A stretch of DNA of 49,976 bases from Thermodesulfobacteriota bacterium (GTDB lineage: Bacteria > Desulfobacterota > BSN033 > UBA1163). The notes beneath the pieces are model-generated. The model did not search any database, was not told the origin of the DNA, and saw only the letters and a list, made by a program, of their open reading frames with translations. Where the stretch lies: contig JASEHH010000012.1 of assembly GCA_030017685.1 (NCBI GenBank), positions 1 to 49,976 of the forward strand, given 5' to 3'. This document shows, piece after piece, positions 12,912 through 21,444 of this stretch. Position 1 is the first letter of the stretch; each line of letters opens with the position of its first letter. The translations under genes were made by a program, and so were the position numbers.

Positions 12912-13478
12912 TTATGGAGCATTACATAAATGTTCGATCAGTATCTTGACGCCGATGCCGATCAGGATGAGGCCGCCAATCACTTCAATCTTCTTCTCGA
13001 AGAAGTGGCCAATTCTATTTCCGATCAGGACTCCCAGGAACGATAGAACAAAGGTCACGGTCCCGATGACGAGGATCGGAGTCACAATTGAAATGTTCAG
13101 GAGGGCGAAACTGATCCCTACCGCTAGGGCGTCAATGCTCGTGGCAATGGAAAGCATCAGGAGCATCCAGAGGCTTAAAGGGAACGTTTCTTTTTTCTGC
13201 CCGTCCATCTTTGTCGATTCATAGATCATCTTACAACCGATCAAACTGAGAAGGCCAAAGGCGATCCAGTGGTCCACGCCTGAGATCAGGTCTCTCAGGG
13301 TTAGGCCTGCTGACCAGCCGATCAACGGCATCATTGCCTGAAAGGAACCAAAGAATATTCCGATTCTTAGGGCATGGTTGGTCCTCTGATGCTTAACGGT
13401 AGTCCCATTGCTGATGGACACGGCAAAGGCATCCATGGCCAATCCGAATGCAATCAGAAGGAGGGTGAGCGTATCCAT
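12912..13478 (-). CDS. mntP: Manganese efflux pump MntP
   Basis: This 188-residue six-helix membrane protein has two repeated halves, each with a conserved acidic motif: GLAMDAFAVSISNG near the N-terminus and ATSIDALAVGISFAL in the middle. These are the hallmark of MntP/YebN Mn(II) exporters. The ATG at 13478 directly abuts the stop of the metallophosphoesterase gene (13479), so it is probably co-transcribed with the redox group upstream. No Mn riboswitch (yybP-ykoY) is apparent in this operon. Confidence 0.95.
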   Translation of the reverse strand: MDTLTLLLIAFGLAMDAFAVSISNGTTVKHQRTNHALRIGIFFGSFQAMMPLIGWSAGLTLRDLISGVDHWIAFGLLSLIGCKMIYESTKMDGQKKETFPLSLWMLLMLSIATSIDALAVGISFALLNISIVTPILVIGTVTFVLSFLGVLIGNRIGHFFEKKIEVIGGLILIGIGVKILIEHLCNAP

Positions 13479-14548: not shown

Positions 14549-15448
14549 TTAGCTTCCCGCCCCGATCTCTTTCAGTTTTGCGACGATCTGGTCTTTATTC
14601 ATGACCCCGGGATGTCGAAAGACCTCCTTGCCTTTGTTATCGAAAAAGACCAGTGTGGGAAGGGCCGCAATTTTATATTCCTTTGCCAGATGTTGATAAT
14701 TATAAACATCGATGACAAGGATTGCAGCCTTTCCGGCATATTCCTTGCCGATCTCCTTGAGAATCGGCCTTAACTGACGGCAGGGGAGACAGGAGTTTGC
14801 TCCGAAATCAACGAGAAAAGGCTTCCCGCCGGCAAAAGCCTTCTTCAGGTCCTCCTCCGTATTCGATTCGGGAGGTTTAGAAGCAATCTTCTGGAGAAGG
14901 ATCTGATCCATTTCGACTTTGGCTGAGGCGCGGAGTTCGGTGACATACTGCTTCATCTCTTCCTGTTGCTTCAGTTCGCGGATGAACTGTTCAATGATGG
15001 GGGATACCTGGTCCAGGGGTTTTCCACCCAATCGGTCTTTCAATAAGGGATAAAATGTTTTTATTTCTTCTTTGGTTACGGTTGGAGGAGTAGAAAACTT
15101 CTTTTTCATCAGCTCGCCGATGAGAGCCTCTTCAGGTGACAGTCCATCCTTATCCGTGTCCTTATAGGTTTTGATGGGAGGGGTTAGTCCCTGCTTTTTT
15201 GCTTCCTGGAGAAAAACCCTATTCATGATGATCCCCTCAAGAAGTTGTTGTGGATCTTCCCTGAGCATCTCTTTTAAAGGCGATTCCACTTTTTCTAATT
15301 CCTTGTTGAACTGTTTTAGGGTAATTTTTTCCCTGTTGACCTGGGCGAGGACTTGCCGGTCTGGGTTCTGGAGATAAAAAAAGTAAAAGAGAAACACGCC
15401 AGCCAGTACAACAATAATAGCTCCAAGGATAATGATTTTCCGTTTCAT
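14549..15448 (-). CDS. Membrane-anchored SurA-N/thioredoxin fusion protein
   Basis: This 299-residue protein has an N-terminal membrane anchor (residues 5-26), a SurA/PpiC-type chaperone segment (VNREKITLKQFNKELEKV ... LLEGIIMNRVFLQEA), and a C-terminal thioredoxin domain with CLPC at 220-223 and the cis-Pro segment AALPTLVFF. An EF-hand-like loop DTDKDG is at 97-102. No PPIase domain is seen between the parts. The start ATG 15448 has a strong AAAGGAGG. It probably works in the periplasm as a thiol reductase for client proteins, with electrons supplied by the CcdA-like protein encoded just upstream. Confidence 0.85.
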   Translation of the reverse strand: MKRKIIILGAIIVVLAGVFLFYFFYLQNPDRQVLAQVNREKITLKQFNKELEKVESPLKEMLREDPQQLLEGIIMNRVFLQEAKKQGLTPPIKTYKDTDKDGLSPEEALIGELMKKKFSTPPTVTKEEIKTFYPLLKDRLGGKPLDQVSPIIEQFIRELKQQEEMKQYVTELRASAKVEMDQILLQKIASKPPESNTEEDLKKAFAGGKPFLVDFGANSCLPCRQLRPILKEIGKEYAGKAAILVIDVYNYQHLAKEYKIAALPTLVFFDNKGKEVFRHPGVMNKDQIVAKLKEIGAGS

Positions 15449-15498
15449 TCTTCCTCCTTTGATTTTCCTTGAGGTCAGTGGAAGTTACTATTTATCCC

Positions 15499-17073
15499 CT
15501 ATATTAGGGCAAAAATCAATATCCCTGCGAGGGCAAAGAAGAAGAAAGAGGTGAGGAGTTTGATGGTGGATGCTCTTCTCTGAAGAAAGAAGGAGAGTTG
15601 TTCCGAGGTCACTCCCCAGTAAACGATACCAAAGATGACGAGCAGAGGAAGAATATAAACGAGATTATAAAGAACGAGATAAAAAACCGCGCTTCCCCTG
15701 AGGGAAGGGATATGGGTGACCAAAAGAAGCGTGGGGAGATAGACCTGGCTTGTGCAGGTCGATTGCAAAAGGGTAACAATGAAACCGATCAAGACAGAAG
15801 CCAGCAGGAAACGAAACGCCTGACCTTCCTGAGCACCTTCCAGTTCAGCGCTTCTTGTCCGGATGATCCAATGAATCCTCTTTTTTAAAAAATCAGGAAC
15901 CTGGAGTTTTATTCTGGAGGGCTTTCCCTTCTTCAACTGGAGGTAGTCGTAGAAACTGAAAATGGCGAGGGAAAGGCTTAATAGAAAAGTGATCAGATAA
16001 ACGACACGGGAGAATAGGGGAAGGAAGGAGAAATGCTGGATGAACCCGAGGATTCCAATGCCCAGCAACAGGTGGGTCAAAAAGGCTGTTCCTGAAAAGC
16101 CCAATCCCACCATCAGGATCTGTTTTCGTCCCTGGCCGATCATAGTGAGATAGGAGATGAAGAAGACCAGGGTGGCCAGGGCACAGGGGTTGAGCCCTTC
16201 GATCAAGCCTGCGATGAGGATGGCCAAGGGCCCAAAAGATTTGAAACGCTCAACCATCGTCTCTTCGGCTTTTGTAATCTCTTCTTGTGTGGGTGATGGT
16301 GAGAGTGATGGTGATGGTTCGGACAATTTCCTATCACCAACACTAACACCATCACTGTATCTTTTGATCAATGACTCCACTCTGGACAAGACGATCTCCT
16401 CCGGCGGGAGGTAGTCGTTTCCGATGAAAATGGCCGGTGCAATCAACCTCTTTTCAGAGGGGAGTTGAAGCCGGTTTGAAAGAATTTCGTTGAGACGCTT
16501 GCCATCAGGGGTATTGAGATCGACCTCTTTAATATTCAGTTTAGGGTATCTTCCCAGGAGATATTTCAGCAGAGCGTTTGCCCGATCACATCTGGGGCAT
16601 CCCTTCTGGTGAAAATAGGTGAGATCGATTGAGACGACGCTTGTTCCGGATGCGGTCGAGGCAATGGCAGATGGAATTTCAATCGGCGGAGTAGGGATTC
16701 CACCTTTGGCCTGATATTCGAGAATAAGGGGGGTGAGTTTTTCCATTACCTCCCTCTCTCCGGAGAGGAGATGATTTCCGATGATGACCACTGGCAGTTC
16801 GTTCTCTTTTTTGCCGAATTGATTCTCTAATTTTGAGAGGGATTCGTAATAGACAGGATTTCCAAGATCAAAGGTTTTGATCTCAAGGAAAGGGTAGATG
16901 GGTTTAAGAGTGGGGAGATAGCCCTGAAGGATGGTCTGGCAGGGCTCGCAATCCTGAGCATAAAAAAAATAGATCTGATTGGAAGGGGAGGACGTTTGGG
17001 TGATCCCCTCTCCCCCAAATAAAAGAGCAAAAATGACAGAAAGGATGGATAGGGGATAGACTACTCTTTTCAC
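15499..17073 (-). CDS. CcdA/DsbD-type transmembrane electron carrier with two N-terminal thioredoxin-like domains
   Basis: This protein has a signal segment, a first thioredoxin/glutaredoxin-like domain with CEPC, a second with CPRC, and then a six-helix CcdA/DsbD-like membrane domain with cysteines in EGLNPCALATLVFF and QSTCTSQVY. Family members pass electrons from cytosolic thioredoxin to periplasmic thiol proteins. The natural partner is the thioredoxin fusion downstream (14549-15448). The frame is open to TTG 17100, but a near-consensus promoter (17080-17108) places the transcript start at the GTG at 17073, so I choose GTG 17073 (about 524 residues) as a leaderless start. Confidence 0.87.
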   Translation of the reverse strand: MKRVVYPLSILSVIFALLFGGEGITQTSSPSNQIYFFYAQDCEPCQTILQGYLPTLKPIYPFLEIKTFDLGNPVYYESLSKLENQFGKKENELPVVIIGNHLLSGEREVMEKLTPLILEYQAKGGIPTPPIEIPSAIASTASGTSVVSIDLTYFHQKGCPRCDRANALLKYLLGRYPKLNIKEVDLNTPDGKRLNEILSNRLQLPSEKRLIAPAIFIGNDYLPPEEIVLSRVESLIKRYSDGVSVGDRKLSEPSPSLSPSPTQEEITKAEETMVERFKSFGPLAILIAGLIEGLNPCALATLVFFISYLTMIGQGRKQILMVGLGFSGTAFLTHLLLGIGILGFIQHFSFLPLFSRVVYLITFLLSLSLAIFSFYDYLQLKKGKPSRIKLQVPDFLKKRIHWIIRTRSAELEGAQEGQAFRFLLASVLIGFIVTLLQSTCTSQVYLPTLLLVTHIPSLRGSAVFYLVLYNLVYILPLLVIFGIVYWGVTSEQLSFFLQRRASTIKLLTSFFFFALAGILIFALI

Positions 17074-17079
17074 ATCCAC

Positions 17080-17108
17080 ATTATACCAACAAGTGGCCAA
17101 AGTTTCAA
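17080..17108 (-). promoter_or_regulatory. Sigma-70 promoter of the CcdA-like redox operon
   Basis: Read on the minus strand: TTGAAA (17108-17103), a 17-bp spacer, TATAAT (17085-17080). The expected start site, 7 bases past the -10 box, is the G of GTG 17073, so the message would be leaderless. The -35 box lies 12 bp from the target duplication of the MITE at 17128. Confidence 0.75.
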
Positions 17109-17127
17109 AGACACAGACATAAGAATC

Positions 17128-17362
17128 GTAACCCCTCAGTTACGTTTACCGCAGTAGCCCAGGGGTCGGCGTGGCCCTTCCTCGCGTTTCAGAAGGCGGG
17201 TTGGTTGACAGGTGCGACAAAATAGGCTTCCAGCCTTGATTGGGATGGTAGGCTATGGATCATGGGAAGCTCTTGAATAAAGGTTTCCGCCGCTGAAACG
17301 CTGTGGGTGACCAGCCCGACCCCTGGGCAAAGGTTTGAGTGCGCTCATAACTGAGGGGTTAC
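17128..17362. mobile_element. 235-bp MITE with GTAA ends and 8-bp target duplication
   Basis: The element starts GTAACCCCTCAGTTA and ends with its inverse TAACTGAGGGGTTAC. Further inward, GCCCAGGGGTCGG and GCGTTTCAG also recur inverted, so the whole element folds into one long hairpin. The flanks are a perfect direct repeat TAAGAATC (17120-17127 and 17363-17370). GTAA termini with 8-bp duplications recall the IS66 family (inference). There is no coding frame of note. It is inserted between two divergent promoters. Confidence 0.85.
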
Positions 17363-17406: not shown

Positions 17407-17422
17407 TAATGAATCATATAAT
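17397..17422. promoter_or_regulatory. ArsR/SmtB-type operator palindrome
   Basis: The perfect inverted repeat ATTATATGATT (17397-17407) / AATCATATAAT (17412-17422) has a 4-bp centre. It overlaps the -10 region and start site of the arsR promoter. ArsR/SmtB repressors bind AT-rich 12-2-12-like palindromes of this kind, and its position argues for autoregulation. Confidence 0.8.
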
Positions 17423-17435
17423 CATGGAGGAGCTT

Positions 17436-17753
17436 ATGGAGGAAAGGGTTCTTGAAATGAAGGCTGAAGTTTTAAAGGCCCTTGCCCAGCCTACTCGCTT
17501 AAAAATCCTCGAATTTCTACGAAACGGGGAAAGATGCATCTGCGAGATCGTTCCGGCGATCAACGGTGAACAGTCCAATATCTCCCGCCATATTTCACTG
17601 ATGCAGAAAAGCCATCTCGTTTCCACCCGAAAAGATGGAGTGAAGGTAATGGTGAAGGTGAAGGACCCAAAGATCTTTGAGATCTTAGACAGTATCAGCA
17701 TCGTTTTGAAGAACCAAGTGAGCGAGCAGAGCAAACTGATGCGATCTCTGTGA
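17436..17753 (+). CDS. arsR: ArsR-family metalloregulator
   Basis: This is a winged-helix repressor of about 105 residues with the ArsR core LKALAQPTRLKILEFLRNG. The metal-site motif is ERCICEIV (ELxVC-like, two Cys), and the recognition helix is GEQSNISRHISLM. I choose ATG 17436, because GGAGG at 17426-17430 precedes it by 5 bp and earlier ATGs fall within the operator. The Cys-x-Cys pair in the DNA-binding helix is the classical As(III)/Sb(III) or Cd-type sensor. It heads an operon with a permease, a thioredoxin-like selenoprotein and acr3, so arsenite is the most likely inducer. Confidence 0.93.
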   Translation: MEERVLEMKAEVLKALAQPTRLKILEFLRNGERCICEIVPAINGEQSNISRHISLMQKSHLVSTRKDGVKVMVKVKDPKIFEILDSISIVLKNQVSEQSKLMRSL

Positions 17754-17763
17754 TCGGAAGGGA

Positions 17764-18801
17764 ATGGGAAGATTGTTAAGCCTTGTTCTCAATAGCGGAT
17801 TGGATGCGTTTCTGGATTATCTTTCGGCCCATGTGTTGACCTGTCTGGTGCCGGCATTTTTCATCGCCGGCGCCATCGGAGTTTTCGTCTCCCAGGCTTC
17901 TGTGCTGAAGTATTTTGGAGCACAAGCCAAGAGGATTTTATCCTACAGTGTGGCTTCTGTATCAGGGACCGTCCTTGCAGTCTGCTCCTGTACGGTGTTG
18001 CCCCTGTTCTCCGGAATTTATCAAAGGGGGGCAGGGATCGGACCAGCCACAGCCTTCCTTTATTCAGGCCCGGCCATCAACGTCCTCGCCATCGTCTATT
18101 CTGCGAGACTTTTAGGTCTTGATCTCGGGGCGGGAAGGGCGATTGGCGCCATCGTCTTTTCCGTCGTTATTGGTCTCATCATGGCTTTTCTCTTCCGTAA
18201 GGATGAAAAGGAAAAAATGGATCAATCCATGGCCCTTGGTATTCTGGAGGGGGGGAAGAAAGGCTATGTATTGCTTATCTATTTTGCCTCTCTGGTAGGA
18301 ATACTCATCTTTGCCTCGCAGAAGAGATGGATATTGACAGGAATTTCCTTTTTAGTTCTTTTTGTCGCTTTGAGGCTCTGGTATGACAAAGAAGAGATCA
18401 AAGAGTGGCTCTCGGCCACCTGGGGCTTCGTGAAGCTTATCACCCCCTGGCTTCTTCTTGGGGTGTTTGTGGCAGGGATGATTAAAGCCCTTATCCCGGA
18501 AACCCTAATTCAACAATGGTTAGGAGGTAATTCTCTCCGTTCCAATTTTATTGCTTCTGTTTTCGGAGCCCTCATGTACTTTGCTACACTGACAGAGGTC
18601 CCGATTATTAAGGCATTTCTTGATATGGGGATGGGCCGGGGACCAGCGCTGGCACTCCTTCTGGCAGGTCCTGCATTGAGTCTGCCCAGCATGATCGTCA
18701 TCATTCGGGTGATGGGACCGAAGAAGGCTTTCACCTATATCGCCCTGGTTGTCATCATGGCAACGATGACTGGGATGGGTTTTGGATACTACTTCTCATA
18801 G
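17764..18801 (+). CDS. Permease of the UPF0718/ArsP-like family
   Basis: This 345-residue protein has about eight to ten transmembrane helices in two repeats. The first half contains the Cys-rich segment AVCSCTVLPLFSGIY and the second half ATLTEVPIIKAF, matching the permease family DUF318/UPF0718. One branch (ArsP) exports trivalent organoarsenicals. ATG 17764 follows arsR by 10 bp. The C-terminal half is followed directly by a small thioredoxin-like gene, a widespread pairing. Substrate assignment to arsenic rests on the arsR and acr3 neighbours. Confidence 0.88.
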   Translation: MGRLLSLVLNSGLDAFLDYLSAHVLTCLVPAFFIAGAIGVFVSQASVLKYFGAQAKRILSYSVASVSGTVLAVCSCTVLPLFSGIYQRGAGIGPATAFLYSGPAINVLAIVYSARLLGLDLGAGRAIGAIVFSVVIGLIMAFLFRKDEKEKMDQSMALGILEGGKKGYVLLIYFASLVGILIFASQKRWILTGISFLVLFVALRLWYDKEEIKEWLSATWGFVKLITPWLLLGVFVAGMIKALIPETLIQQWLGGNSLRSNFIASVFGALMYFATLTEVPIIKAFLDMGMGRGPALALLLAGPALSLPSMIVIIRVMGPKKAFTYIALVVIMATMTGMGFGYYFS

Positions 18802-18812
18802 GAGGTGAAATG

Positions 18813-19052
18813 ATGAAAAAGATTGAAATCCTGGGAGTGGGCTGACCCAGGTGCAATCAGCTTGCGGAGCGAGCTAAAGATGCGGTGAAAGAATTGGGTA
18901 TTGAAGCAGAAGTAATTAAAGTCCAGGACATTAAAACCATCACCAACTACGGTGTCCTCGTCACTCCGGCCCTGGTAGTGGATGGAGTGGTAAAAGTTGC
19001 AGGAAAACTTCCAAAAGTGGAAGAAATCAAGGGGTGGATCAAATCACAATAG
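18813..19052 (+). CDS. Thioredoxin_3-type small redox protein with in-frame UGA (candidate selenocysteine)
   Basis: This 79-residue reading frame is interrupted by one TGA at 18843-18845, so it is easily missed. It reads MKKIEILGVG-U-PRCNQLAERAKDAV, then TPALVVDGVVKVAGKLP and KGWIKSQ. Family members (redox-active disulfide protein 2, TIGR00412-like) have CPKC at this place, so the TGA replaces the first active-site Cys and gives UPRC. GGAGGTG at 18801 precedes ATG 18813 by 7 bp; ATG 18810 is an alternative. Apart from the TGA, frame and conservation are intact. A fitting hairpin follows the TGA. It lies between the permease and acr3, probably as their thiol/selenol partner. A nonsense mutation is the alternative reading. 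Confidence 0.85.
18843..18875 (+). promoter_or_regulatory. Candidate bacterial SECIS element
   Basis: UGA is followed by 13 bases and then the hairpin AGCTTGC-GGA-GCGAGCT (18859-18875), seven pairs including one G-U. The apical loop begins 20 bases after the UGA and starts with G, matching the known bacterial SECIS rules (loop at about 16-37 bases with a G among the first loop bases). Confidence 0.7.
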
Positions 19053-19067
19053 AGGAGGACTTCAGGA

Positions 19068-20162
19068 ATGATTGAAGAGCAGATCACTAAAAAACTCTCT
19101 TTTCTGGATCGGTTTCTAACCTTGTGGATCTTTCTGGCAATGTTTGTGGGGGTGGGCTGGGGATATCTCTTCCCCGGCGTGGTCGATTTCTGGAATCAAT
19201 TTCAGGTGGATACGACCAATATACCCATCGCCATTGGGCTGATTCTGATGATGTATCCACCACTGGCCAAGGTGAGGTACGAGGAGATGGGGCAGGTCTT
19301 CCGGAATTATAAAGTCCTTACTCTCTCTTTAATCCAGAACTGGGTGATCGGCCCTATCCTTATGTTTCTTTTAGCGATCGCCTTTCTTTCTGGATATCAC
19401 GAGTATATGGTCGGATTGATTCTGATCGGACTGGCCCGTTGCATTGCCATGGTGATCGTATGGAATGACCTGGCCTCCGGAGACAGAGAATACTGTGCCG
19501 GGCTTGTGGCCTTCAATTCCATTTTCCAGGTTCTCTTCTTCTCCATCTATGCCTACATCTTCATCACCATCCTTCCGCCCTGGTTGGGGCTGAAAGGAAT
19601 GGCGGTCAAGATCACGATCGGTCAGATTGCGGAAAGCGTCTTCATCTATCTCGGAATTCCTTTTATTGCAGGAGTCCTCTCACGAATCATTGGTCTAAAG
19701 ACCAAAGGCAGGGAGTGGTACGAACAGAAATTCGTTCCTAAAATCAGCCCCATCACTTTGATTGCCCTTCTATTTACCATCCTGGTCATGTTCTCCCTTA
19801 AAGGTGAATATATTGTTCGGTTGCCCCTGGACGTGGTGCGGGTGGCGATTCCTTTGCTCATCTACTTCGTCCTTATGTTTCTCGTATCGTTTTACCTCTC
19901 GACAAAGGTGGGAGCAACTTATGAACAGTCCACTACGCTGAGTTTCACCGCAGCATCGAACAATTTCGAACTGGCCATCGCTGTGGCCGTGGCGGTCTTC
20001 GGAATCAACTCCGGCCAGGCATTTGCCGCAGTCATCGGGCCTCTGATGGAGGTTCCGGTCTTGATCAGTCTGGTCAATGTGGCGCTCTGGTTTAAAAGAA
20101 AACATTTTCCTTATGCCGTAGAGACGCCCGCAGGAGTCTGCCATGTCACCTGCAAACCATGA
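19068..20162 (+). CDS. acr3: Arsenite efflux transporter ACR3
   Basis: This 364-residue, ten-helix member of the BASS/ACR3 superfamily carries the conserved cysteine segment [16 protein letters not shown] that is essential in characterised ACR3 pumps, and [18 protein letters not shown] in the second half. It extrudes arsenite across the cytoplasmic membrane. It starts at ATG 19068 after GAGGAGGACTTCAGGA, 15 bp beyond the selenoprotein stop, as the last gene of the ars operon. The C-terminus ends CHVTCKP, with a Cys pair. No arsC is visible in the window, so arsenate reduction would need another locus. Confidence 0.95.
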
Positions 20163-20268: not shown

Positions 20269-21444
20269 CTACAATACAATCAAAGAGATTCCTGTCCCTA
20301 TTAGGACGACCCAGAGGATATCCGCCTTTTTTAGGAGAGCAATAAAAGCTCCGAGCGTGATAACGAGACGCGGTAGATCCCAGGGGATATTTGAGGCAAA
20401 GTGTATGGTGACAGTTAAGAGAAGTCCCACAAAAGAACATAGGATGCCAGTGAGAACCCTATTAAAATAAGGCGAGGTTCGCATTCTGTCAAAGTAAGGC
20501 ACAATGCCGATGACGATCATGAACGAAGGCAAAAACACACTGACCGTTGCGACAAGCCCTCCCAGAAAACCATGTAACAAGTAACCCATGAAGGTTGCCG
20601 TAATTACAATAGGCCCTGGAGTTACCTGCCCCATGGCAATTCCGTTCAAGAGGGTGGGACCATCCATCCATCGTCGAACCTCAACGACTTCGTGAAACAT
20701 AAGAGGGACAGAGGCAAAACCACCCCCAAAGGCAAACAGATCTATCCTGAACATGAGGGTGGCAAGGTCGAACAGCTTTCGGTCTAAAAAATAAAAGGCT
20801 GTAAACCCTATGGCTGTAACCAACACTATTAATAAAAGAGATTTTGGAGCATGTTCCTTTTTCATGGTACCCACTGCAGGAGAAAGAGGTTGTTTGTTAT
20901 AAAGGATCATTCCCAAGAAGGCAGAGATGATAATGACCAGGATGGGGTTAATCCTCAGCCCAAAGAGACCTGCGGCAATCAACACATTGATCACATTTTT
21001 CCAGCTCTTAATGGAGGTCCTGCCAAAGGATAAAGTGGCATTAGCGACAAGAGCAACAACGATGGCCTGAAGTCCATTAAATATTGAAACAACGGAGGGT
21101 AATGTATGCGTCCTTGCATAGAGGGCAGAAAGGATCATCATGAAAAGAAATGCAGGAAGTCCAAATCCAATGAAACTCGCGGCGGCGCCTCCTACTCCCC
21201 TTACCCTGAAGCCAATGTACGCGGACATTTGCATAGCCGTTGCACCCGGTATGGTCTGACATAAGGCAATACCATCGCGGGCAGTCTTTTCATCGAGCCA
21301 ATGCTTTTGATCCACAGCCATTTTACGAATGTAGGCAACCATTGCCGGGCCGCCAAATGCGGTAGCTCCCAGTCTTAAAAAAGATGTGAAGAGATGGGTC
21401 AGGGAAGGATGTTGTTCAACCTGTTGACACTCCGAGTCTTTCAT
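20269..21444 (-). CDS. chrA: Chromate transporter ChrA (two-domain)
   Basis: This 391-residue CHR superfamily protein has two homologous halves. Each has the family signature: LRLGATAFGGPAMVAYI at the N-terminus and DLFAFGGGFASVPLMF in the second half, together with LCQTIPGATAMQ and MGQVTPGPIVI. Long-chain ChrA proteins export chromate, though many homologues in anaerobes have untested substrates. ATG 21444 has a GGAGAGGG upstream. Together with the ars operon it makes a metal-resistance neighbourhood, though the two are convergent and independently expressed. Confidence 0.93.
   Translation of the reverse strand: MKDSECQQVEQHPSLTHLFTSFLRLGATAFGGPAMVAYIRKMAVDQKHWLDEKTARDGIALCQTIPGATAMQMSAYIGFRVRGVGGAAASFIGFGLPAFLFMMILSALYARTHTLPSVVSIFNGLQAIVVALVANATLSFGRTSIKSWKNVINVLIAAGLFGLRINPILVIIISAFLGMILYNKQPLSPAVGTMKKEHAPKSLLLIVLVTAIGFTAFYFLDRKLFDLATLMFRIDLFAFGGGFASVPLMFHEVVEVRRWMDGPTLLNGIAMGQVTPGPIVITATFMGYLLHGFLGGLVATVSVFLPSFMIVIGIVPYFDRMRTSPYFNRVLTGILCSFVGLLLTVTIHFASNIPWDLPRLVITLGAFIALLKKADILWVVLIGTGISLIVL

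Follow-up and report, generated by a model that had tools for sequence, protein, structure and literature searches.

We analyzed a 49,976-nucleotide stretch of DNA from a Thermodesulfobacteriota bacterium (the window), in which genes for ArsR, an ArsP-type permease, a small thioredoxin-like protein interrupted by an in-frame TGA, and Acr3 form one cluster of uniform strand (Table 1). On the opposite strand, and divergent from the ars genes, positions 14549 to 17100 encode a 299-amino-acid (aa) protein with a thioredoxin domain and a protein of 533 aa in which several CxxC motifs occur; open reading frames resembling the 533-aa protein hold the same place in two other genomes (G007 and G008), and a counterpart of the 299-aa protein does so in a third (G009). 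The region 5′ of arsR contains a 235-bp MITE-like insert (17128 to 17362) bounded by a 15-bp perfect inverted repeat (17128 to 17142 and 17348 to 17362), inside which lies a further, imperfect inverted repeat of 36 nt. We failed to find a second copy of this insert in the source genome, the assembly of which is incomplete. Adjoining the arsenic genes on their other side, the minus-strand gene at 20269 to 21444 presumably encodes a chromate transporter, judging by eye.

Table 1. Features of the arsenic gene cluster in the window
Feature	Position	Strand	Remarks
ArsR/SmtB-family metalloregulator	17409..17753	+	Ordinary TGA stop
ArsP_1 family permease	17764..18801	+	PF03773, 275.5 bits; Cys82-Ser-Cys84
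Shine-Dalgarno-like AGGAGG	18800..18805	+	7 nt 5′ of ATG 18813; read by eye
Predicted gene of a thioredoxin-like selenoprotein (ArsE/MTH895 family) with the active site U-P-R-C	18813..19052	+	79 codons, the UGA counting as Sec; ends in TAG
Predicted Sec codon (in-frame TGA) at the U of UxxC	18843..18845	+	
Bacterial SECIS-type hairpin (putative)	18860..18874	+	6-bp stem 18860-18865/18869-18874; apical loop GGA 18866-18868
ACR3 arsenite efflux transporter	19068..20162	+	TIGR00832, 465.6 bits; ordinary TGA stop

The thioredoxin-like frame translates as MKKIEILGVG*PRCNQ...KSQ*, with a single internal TGA and a TAG at its end, in agreement with the original prediction that the frame is unbroken on either side of one TGA. 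A second in-frame ATG is present at 18810, and the one at 18813 has the more usual distance to the ribosome site. The open reading frame list of the window gives just a 55-aa remnant of this gene, starting from GTG 18885, and genes of this type are thus easily missed. When the window was scanned for further genes with a single TGA to be read through, one candidate was obtained, a stop/start overlap near 13478.

With U placed at the TGA, the product matched the TIGR00412 model (MTH895/ArsE) with 104.2 bits against a cut-off of 62 (residues 3 to 77, profile positions 1 to 75 of 75) and the Pfam Thioredoxin_3 model with 94.2 bits against a cut-off of 24.8 (residues 3 to 77). It has a UxxC at the start of helix 1 and no literal CxxC, so that the redox pair of the TIGR00412 family is present if Sec is allowed for the first Cys. 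In an alignment of 41 of the 58 sequences available (the window, 8 Sec-type loci, and 32 Cys-type loci), both the column of the TGA and that of the Cys three positions later were invariant when U was counted as C. The TGA had been predicted to occupy the position of the first Cys of CxxC, and that column was indeed Cys or Sec in all 41 sequences. An AlphaFold2 model built from the same alignment (pLDDT 93.3) has a strand at residues 2 to 7 and a helix at residues 12 to 28, right after residue 11, indicating the active-site arrangement of thioredoxins. Its nearest structure in the PDB was MTH895 (1ilo; TM 0.80, 43% identity), to which the sequence profile also matched with an E value of 4.5e-17, followed by an ERp57 domain, ArsD (3mwh, TM 0.60), and thioredoxins.

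The TGA is not confined to the window. Among the matches listed, we found 14 distinct Sec-type genes in 14 genomes of three families (9 in f1, 4 in f21, and 1 in f12), and in all of them the TGA was codon 11 and the sole stop in codons 1 to 77. A search of 198 relatives gave a family match in 141, at least 11 of them with one TGA; 11 of the 23 genomes of the class had a match, 9 in the TGA form; and 395 genomes drawn from the phylum included 274 with a match and at least 13 TGA forms. No other stop was seen among the matches listed for these three sets. In the class of one of the carriers (G112; 8 genomes, E ≤ 1e-22), all 4 matches had the TGA, as did 1 of the 3 matches in the family of another (G209; 8 genomes, E ≤ 1e-15). 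Public genome records provided 57 loci, namely, 8 with TGA, 48 with Cys, and 1 fragment without the motif; one of these (L070) is the same record place as that of G209 and was counted once. The 8 titled Sec-type loci came from MAGs labelled Syntrophaceae, Deltaproteobacteria, Thermodesulfobacteriota, or "uncultured bacterium," and the Sec-type sequences come from draft assemblies, of which nearly all those with a title are designated MAGs.

The segment beyond the TGA is selected as protein, given that pN was well below pS there: over 91 pairs of the 14 genes, mean pS was 0.721 and mean pN 0.134 (ratio 0.19), compared with 0.723 and 0.084 (ratio 0.12) on the 5′ side. Between the window and a genome of the same genus (G003), the differences 3′ of the TGA affected 29 synonymous sites (of 46.8) and 8 nonsynonymous sites (of 151.2). 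These data bear on the explanation that the TGA ends a 10-aa leader and serves as a selenium or arsenic switch, the remainder being translated by reinitiation. A 55-aa frame from GTG 18885 does exist as a possible product, but it would have neither strand 1 nor any of the UxxC motif, though those codons are conserved, and we consider this reading very unlikely.

The original prediction presupposed a selenocysteine machinery, and the source genome (3.96 Mb in 326 contigs, 92.14% complete, 2.78% contamination) has selA (632.2 bits), selB (373.9 bits), two selD genes (391.9 and 368.6 bits), and a tRNA-Sec (82.2 bits) with the anticodon TCA. Both selD genes (L062 and L063; G000:C295 and G000:C121) hold an in-frame TGA of their own and are thus probably two selenoprotein SelD genes. 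In a survey of 24 genomes, 14 with the Sec form and 10 without it, selA exceeded the cut-off in all 24, hence in all 14 carriers, and tRNA-Sec did so in 22. Twelve of the 14 carriers had a tRNA-Sec score of at least 70 bits; in the other two it was 47.0, at the cut-off (G009), and 41.7, below the cut-off (G209, 85% complete). One genome with no family match (G004) also had a tRNA-Sec score below the cut-off. The machinery does not discriminate the carriers, since the 10 surveyed genomes lacking the Sec form all had selA too. Genome-wide recoding of UGA, for example to Trp, found no support and has next to no probability: the adjacent ArsR and Acr3 genes end in TGA, which is thus a normal stop here, the internal TGA aligns with Cys rather than Trp, and a tRNA-Sec with the anticodon TCA is present.

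In bacterial SECIS elements, the apical loop lies about 16 to 37 nt after the UGA and starts with a G. The window hairpin, GCTTGC-GGA-GCGAGC, begins 14 nt past the TGA and has its GGA loop 20 nt past it, in line with this rule and just as had been predicted. In any single sequence the hairpin is marginal. The window stem alone, with 6 of 6 pairs, was matched by 5% of synonymous shuffles, and the fold of 48 nt gave a p value of 0.16 against such shuffles in the window. Among 12 Sec genes, 3 had a p value of <0.05 for this fold, and the z values of 84 Cys homologues averaged −0.57. The case for the hairpin comes instead from its conservation over the 14 Sec sequences, in which 81 of 84 stem cells were standard pairs, compared with 8 to 48% when the partner strand was slid by 1 to 3 bases. 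Synonymous shuffles with local codon usage yielded 55.2 ± 3.6 pairs, with a maximum of 67 in 5000, in a summed test that overstates independence because the 14 sequences are related. The closing C-G pair was replaced by A-U in two genomes (G010 and G214), two others (G011 and G014) were without the closing pair and kept the other five, and one (G013) had one pair broken. Covariation was slight: of 500 column shuffles, 30 reached its score and 237 reached the count of doubly changed pairs. Only 2 of the 84 Cys homologues had 5 contiguous pairs in the same register.

One of these two, G008, belongs to the same genus as the window and likewise has ArsR and ArsP genes on the 5′ side, with TGC at the Sec codon; its 5 retained stem pairs are what would be expected of a remnant. 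A tree of 47 protein sequences, built from as few as 77 columns and with many forks open, placed the 14 Sec forms and G008 in a single group with a support of 97/88, and G008 paired with G009 (83/84, a branch that was not starred). The Sec label required 2 changes on this tree, compared with 12.2 in shuffles. The nesting of a TGC form within the Sec group suggests one gain of Sec from Cys and one reversion, and the G008 sequence is consistent with such a Sec-to-Cys reversion. The Cys/Sec exchange that the original prediction had looked for among homologues is thus seen, with Cys at the U11 column outside the Sec group and G008 within it. It had also named the opposite outcome, a lone nonsense copy among relatives with TGC, and what we found was TGA in 13 other genomes. 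Separately, one genome (G016; L050 and L064) carries a Cys-type copy directly 5′ of its Sec-type copy, providing a natural paralogue pair, and another (G012; L058) has an intact Cys-type copy together with a second copy that is split over two frames and apparently broken.

A recent nonsense mutation, a sequencing error, or a pseudogene might be suspected from one TGA in an otherwise Cys-containing family and from an assembly in 326 contigs. We regard this as extremely improbable in view of the TGA being present in 14 genomes of three families, the purifying selection downstream of it, the Sec machinery, and the conserved hairpin. We are highly confident that positions 18813 to 19052 are a functional selenoprotein gene with U11 replacing the first active-site Cys. 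This assignment is supported by sequence comparison, namely, by the frame, the conservation of the TGA, the hairpin, the Sec machinery, the Sec/Cys exchange, and the link to ArsP.

The last of these was the most widespread feature of the gene neighborhood. An ArsP-type permease was found 5′ of the Sec gene in 12 of the 14 Sec loci, within 90 bases in 10 and within 340 bases in 2, as measured to stop-to-stop frames. At one of the remaining loci (L050), no permease was found in the 922 bases upstream, and a Cys paralogue was there instead; the sequence of another (L056) starts 42 bases before the Sec gene, at a contig edge. Acr3 was located 3′ of the Sec gene in 4 of the 14 (the window, G140, G112, and G236), with several loci being clipped by contig or fetch ends. 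The original prediction that the order of permease, thioredoxin, and acr3 is kept therefore stands for the window and, as regards the permease, for 11 of the 13 other loci, but the acr3 part holds in only 3 of those 13. In other Sec loci, the 3′ side has a gene presumed, from homology to picked sequences, to encode a small Trx, CcdA, a CLCEPTEILIF-type protein, or a low-molecular-weight ArsC-like protein. At six loci (L049, L050, L051, L054, L057, and L058), a downstream open reading frame of 164 to 184 aa ends in a TIGR00412-like domain of the ILGPGC/LLGLGC type. Among 51 aligned permeases (one per locus, at least 280 aa, picked by similarity to the window permease), Cys82 and Cys84 were invariant, and Cys35 was present in 41 overall and in all 11 permeases adjacent to a Sec gene. 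The permease was also directly 5′ in 25 of 48 Cys-type loci from several phyla, which agrees with the account of ars operons in PMC2963123, where the TIGR00412 family was found with CcdA and Trx.

Several known systems resemble parts of this cluster. ArsD, a metallochaperone (3mwh), shares a related fold (TM 0.60) and an arsenic operon setting at 23% identity, and we do not claim membership of its family; it presumably uses its cysteines differently from the window protein. SaoT and SaoE belong to the selenocysteine-assisted organometal system. The window protein did not match SaoT (NF040730) at E ≤ 0.001. The window permease is a relative of SaoE (NF040736; 121.4 bits, under the cut-off of 325) and of the SO_0444 Cu/Zn efflux transporter (NF033936; 127.2 bits, under the cut-off of 300), and, unlike the SaoT/SaoE system, the same-strand genes from 17409 to 20162 include no ABC transporter. 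Like the window protein, SaoT is a thioredoxin-like UxxC selenoprotein according to Table 1 of PMC13188914. SO_0444 is given there in a UxC form, whereas the window permease keeps CxC and the Sec sits in its partner; the UxC and the CxC probably represent the same site.

The closest likeness is to MTH895/ArsE itself (TIGR00412, redox-active disulfide protein 2; 1ilo) in fold, profile match, and, from PMC2963123, the ars operon setting. The window protein differs from it in having Sec for the first active-site Cys, and the NCBI description of the model names no selenoprotein form. Selenoproteins with the same Pfam domain, PF13192, have been predicted in Brachyspira (Sec.1 and Sec.2; PMC5330540). 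However, their Sec belongs to a short extension at the N terminus (CxU or UxC), whereas U11 of the window protein is within the domain and there is no extension. A 2026 review (PMC13188914) tabulates 119 selenoprotein families and subfamilies, and in its available portion PF13192 is represented by Sec.1 (CxU) and Sec.2 (UxC) only, with the UxxC form of TIGR00412 being absent from Table 1. Nor did a published UxxC form of TIGR00412 turn up in literature listings, supplemented by passages of PMC5330540, PMC7435645, PMC2963123, PMC12013277, PMC9312934, PMC2398784, and PMC5029168, with the work of Haft and Gwadz (2023) and of Haft and Tolstoy (2025) covered through the review. The broadly defined GOS group "Trx-like 1" (COG0526, UxxC) could hide members of TIGR00412. 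Within the literature as covered here, the UxxC variant of the TIGR00412 family appears to be new, with a predicted Sec position unlike that of earlier PF13192 selenoproteins.

We propose that SelB and Sec-tRNA would read the UGA at 18843 with the aid of the hairpin just 3′ of it, producing a thioredoxin-fold protein of 79 residues in which U11, where helix 1 starts, is the nucleophile and Cys14 its partner. The protein would be cytosolic and the cluster cotranscribed. The Se-S pair may then reduce or handle trivalent arsenicals on behalf of the neighboring permease, in which Cys35, Cys82, and Cys84 could accept them; Sec would be expected to attack As-S or disulfide bonds faster. On the cytosolic side, the selenol could maintain the permease, or else an arsenate reductase, in the reduced state, or it could pass trivalent arsenicals to the ArsP cysteines.

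Alternatively, Sec may merely make a better general reductant, acting on ArsC, a CcdA/Trx chain, or a disulfide of the permease, and not as a ligand or carrier of arsenicals. This is a plausible reading, to which we give somewhat less than an even chance: the fold is that of a plain thioredoxin, and genes for CcdA, a small Trx, and a low-molecular-weight ArsC-like protein, named by homology, occur in related loci. The redox-active disulfide protein 2 was itself proposed, together with CcdA and Trx, to work within an arsenate reductase system (PMC2963123). On the other hand, it is the CxC-bearing ArsP permease, and not an arsenate reductase, that accompanies the gene most constantly. Judging from the gene neighbors, we moderately favor a redox or arsenical relay to ArsP over a general reductant of the operon. 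The strict carrier version, in which a trivalent (organo)arsenical forms an As-Se adduct with Sec11 and is then handed to Cys35, Cys82, and Cys84 of ArsP, is considered only tentatively and is rather unlikely.

In the predicted protein, the catalytic position of a widespread family of ars-operon thioredoxins would be occupied by Sec, giving an arsenic operon a selenium-based part. The window and G008, both from one genus, are a naturally occurring Sec/Cys pair, which lets one ask what benefit selenium brings to arsenic handling. If the As-Se relay is true, selenium chemistry would directly drive arsenic efflux in these uncultured bacteria.
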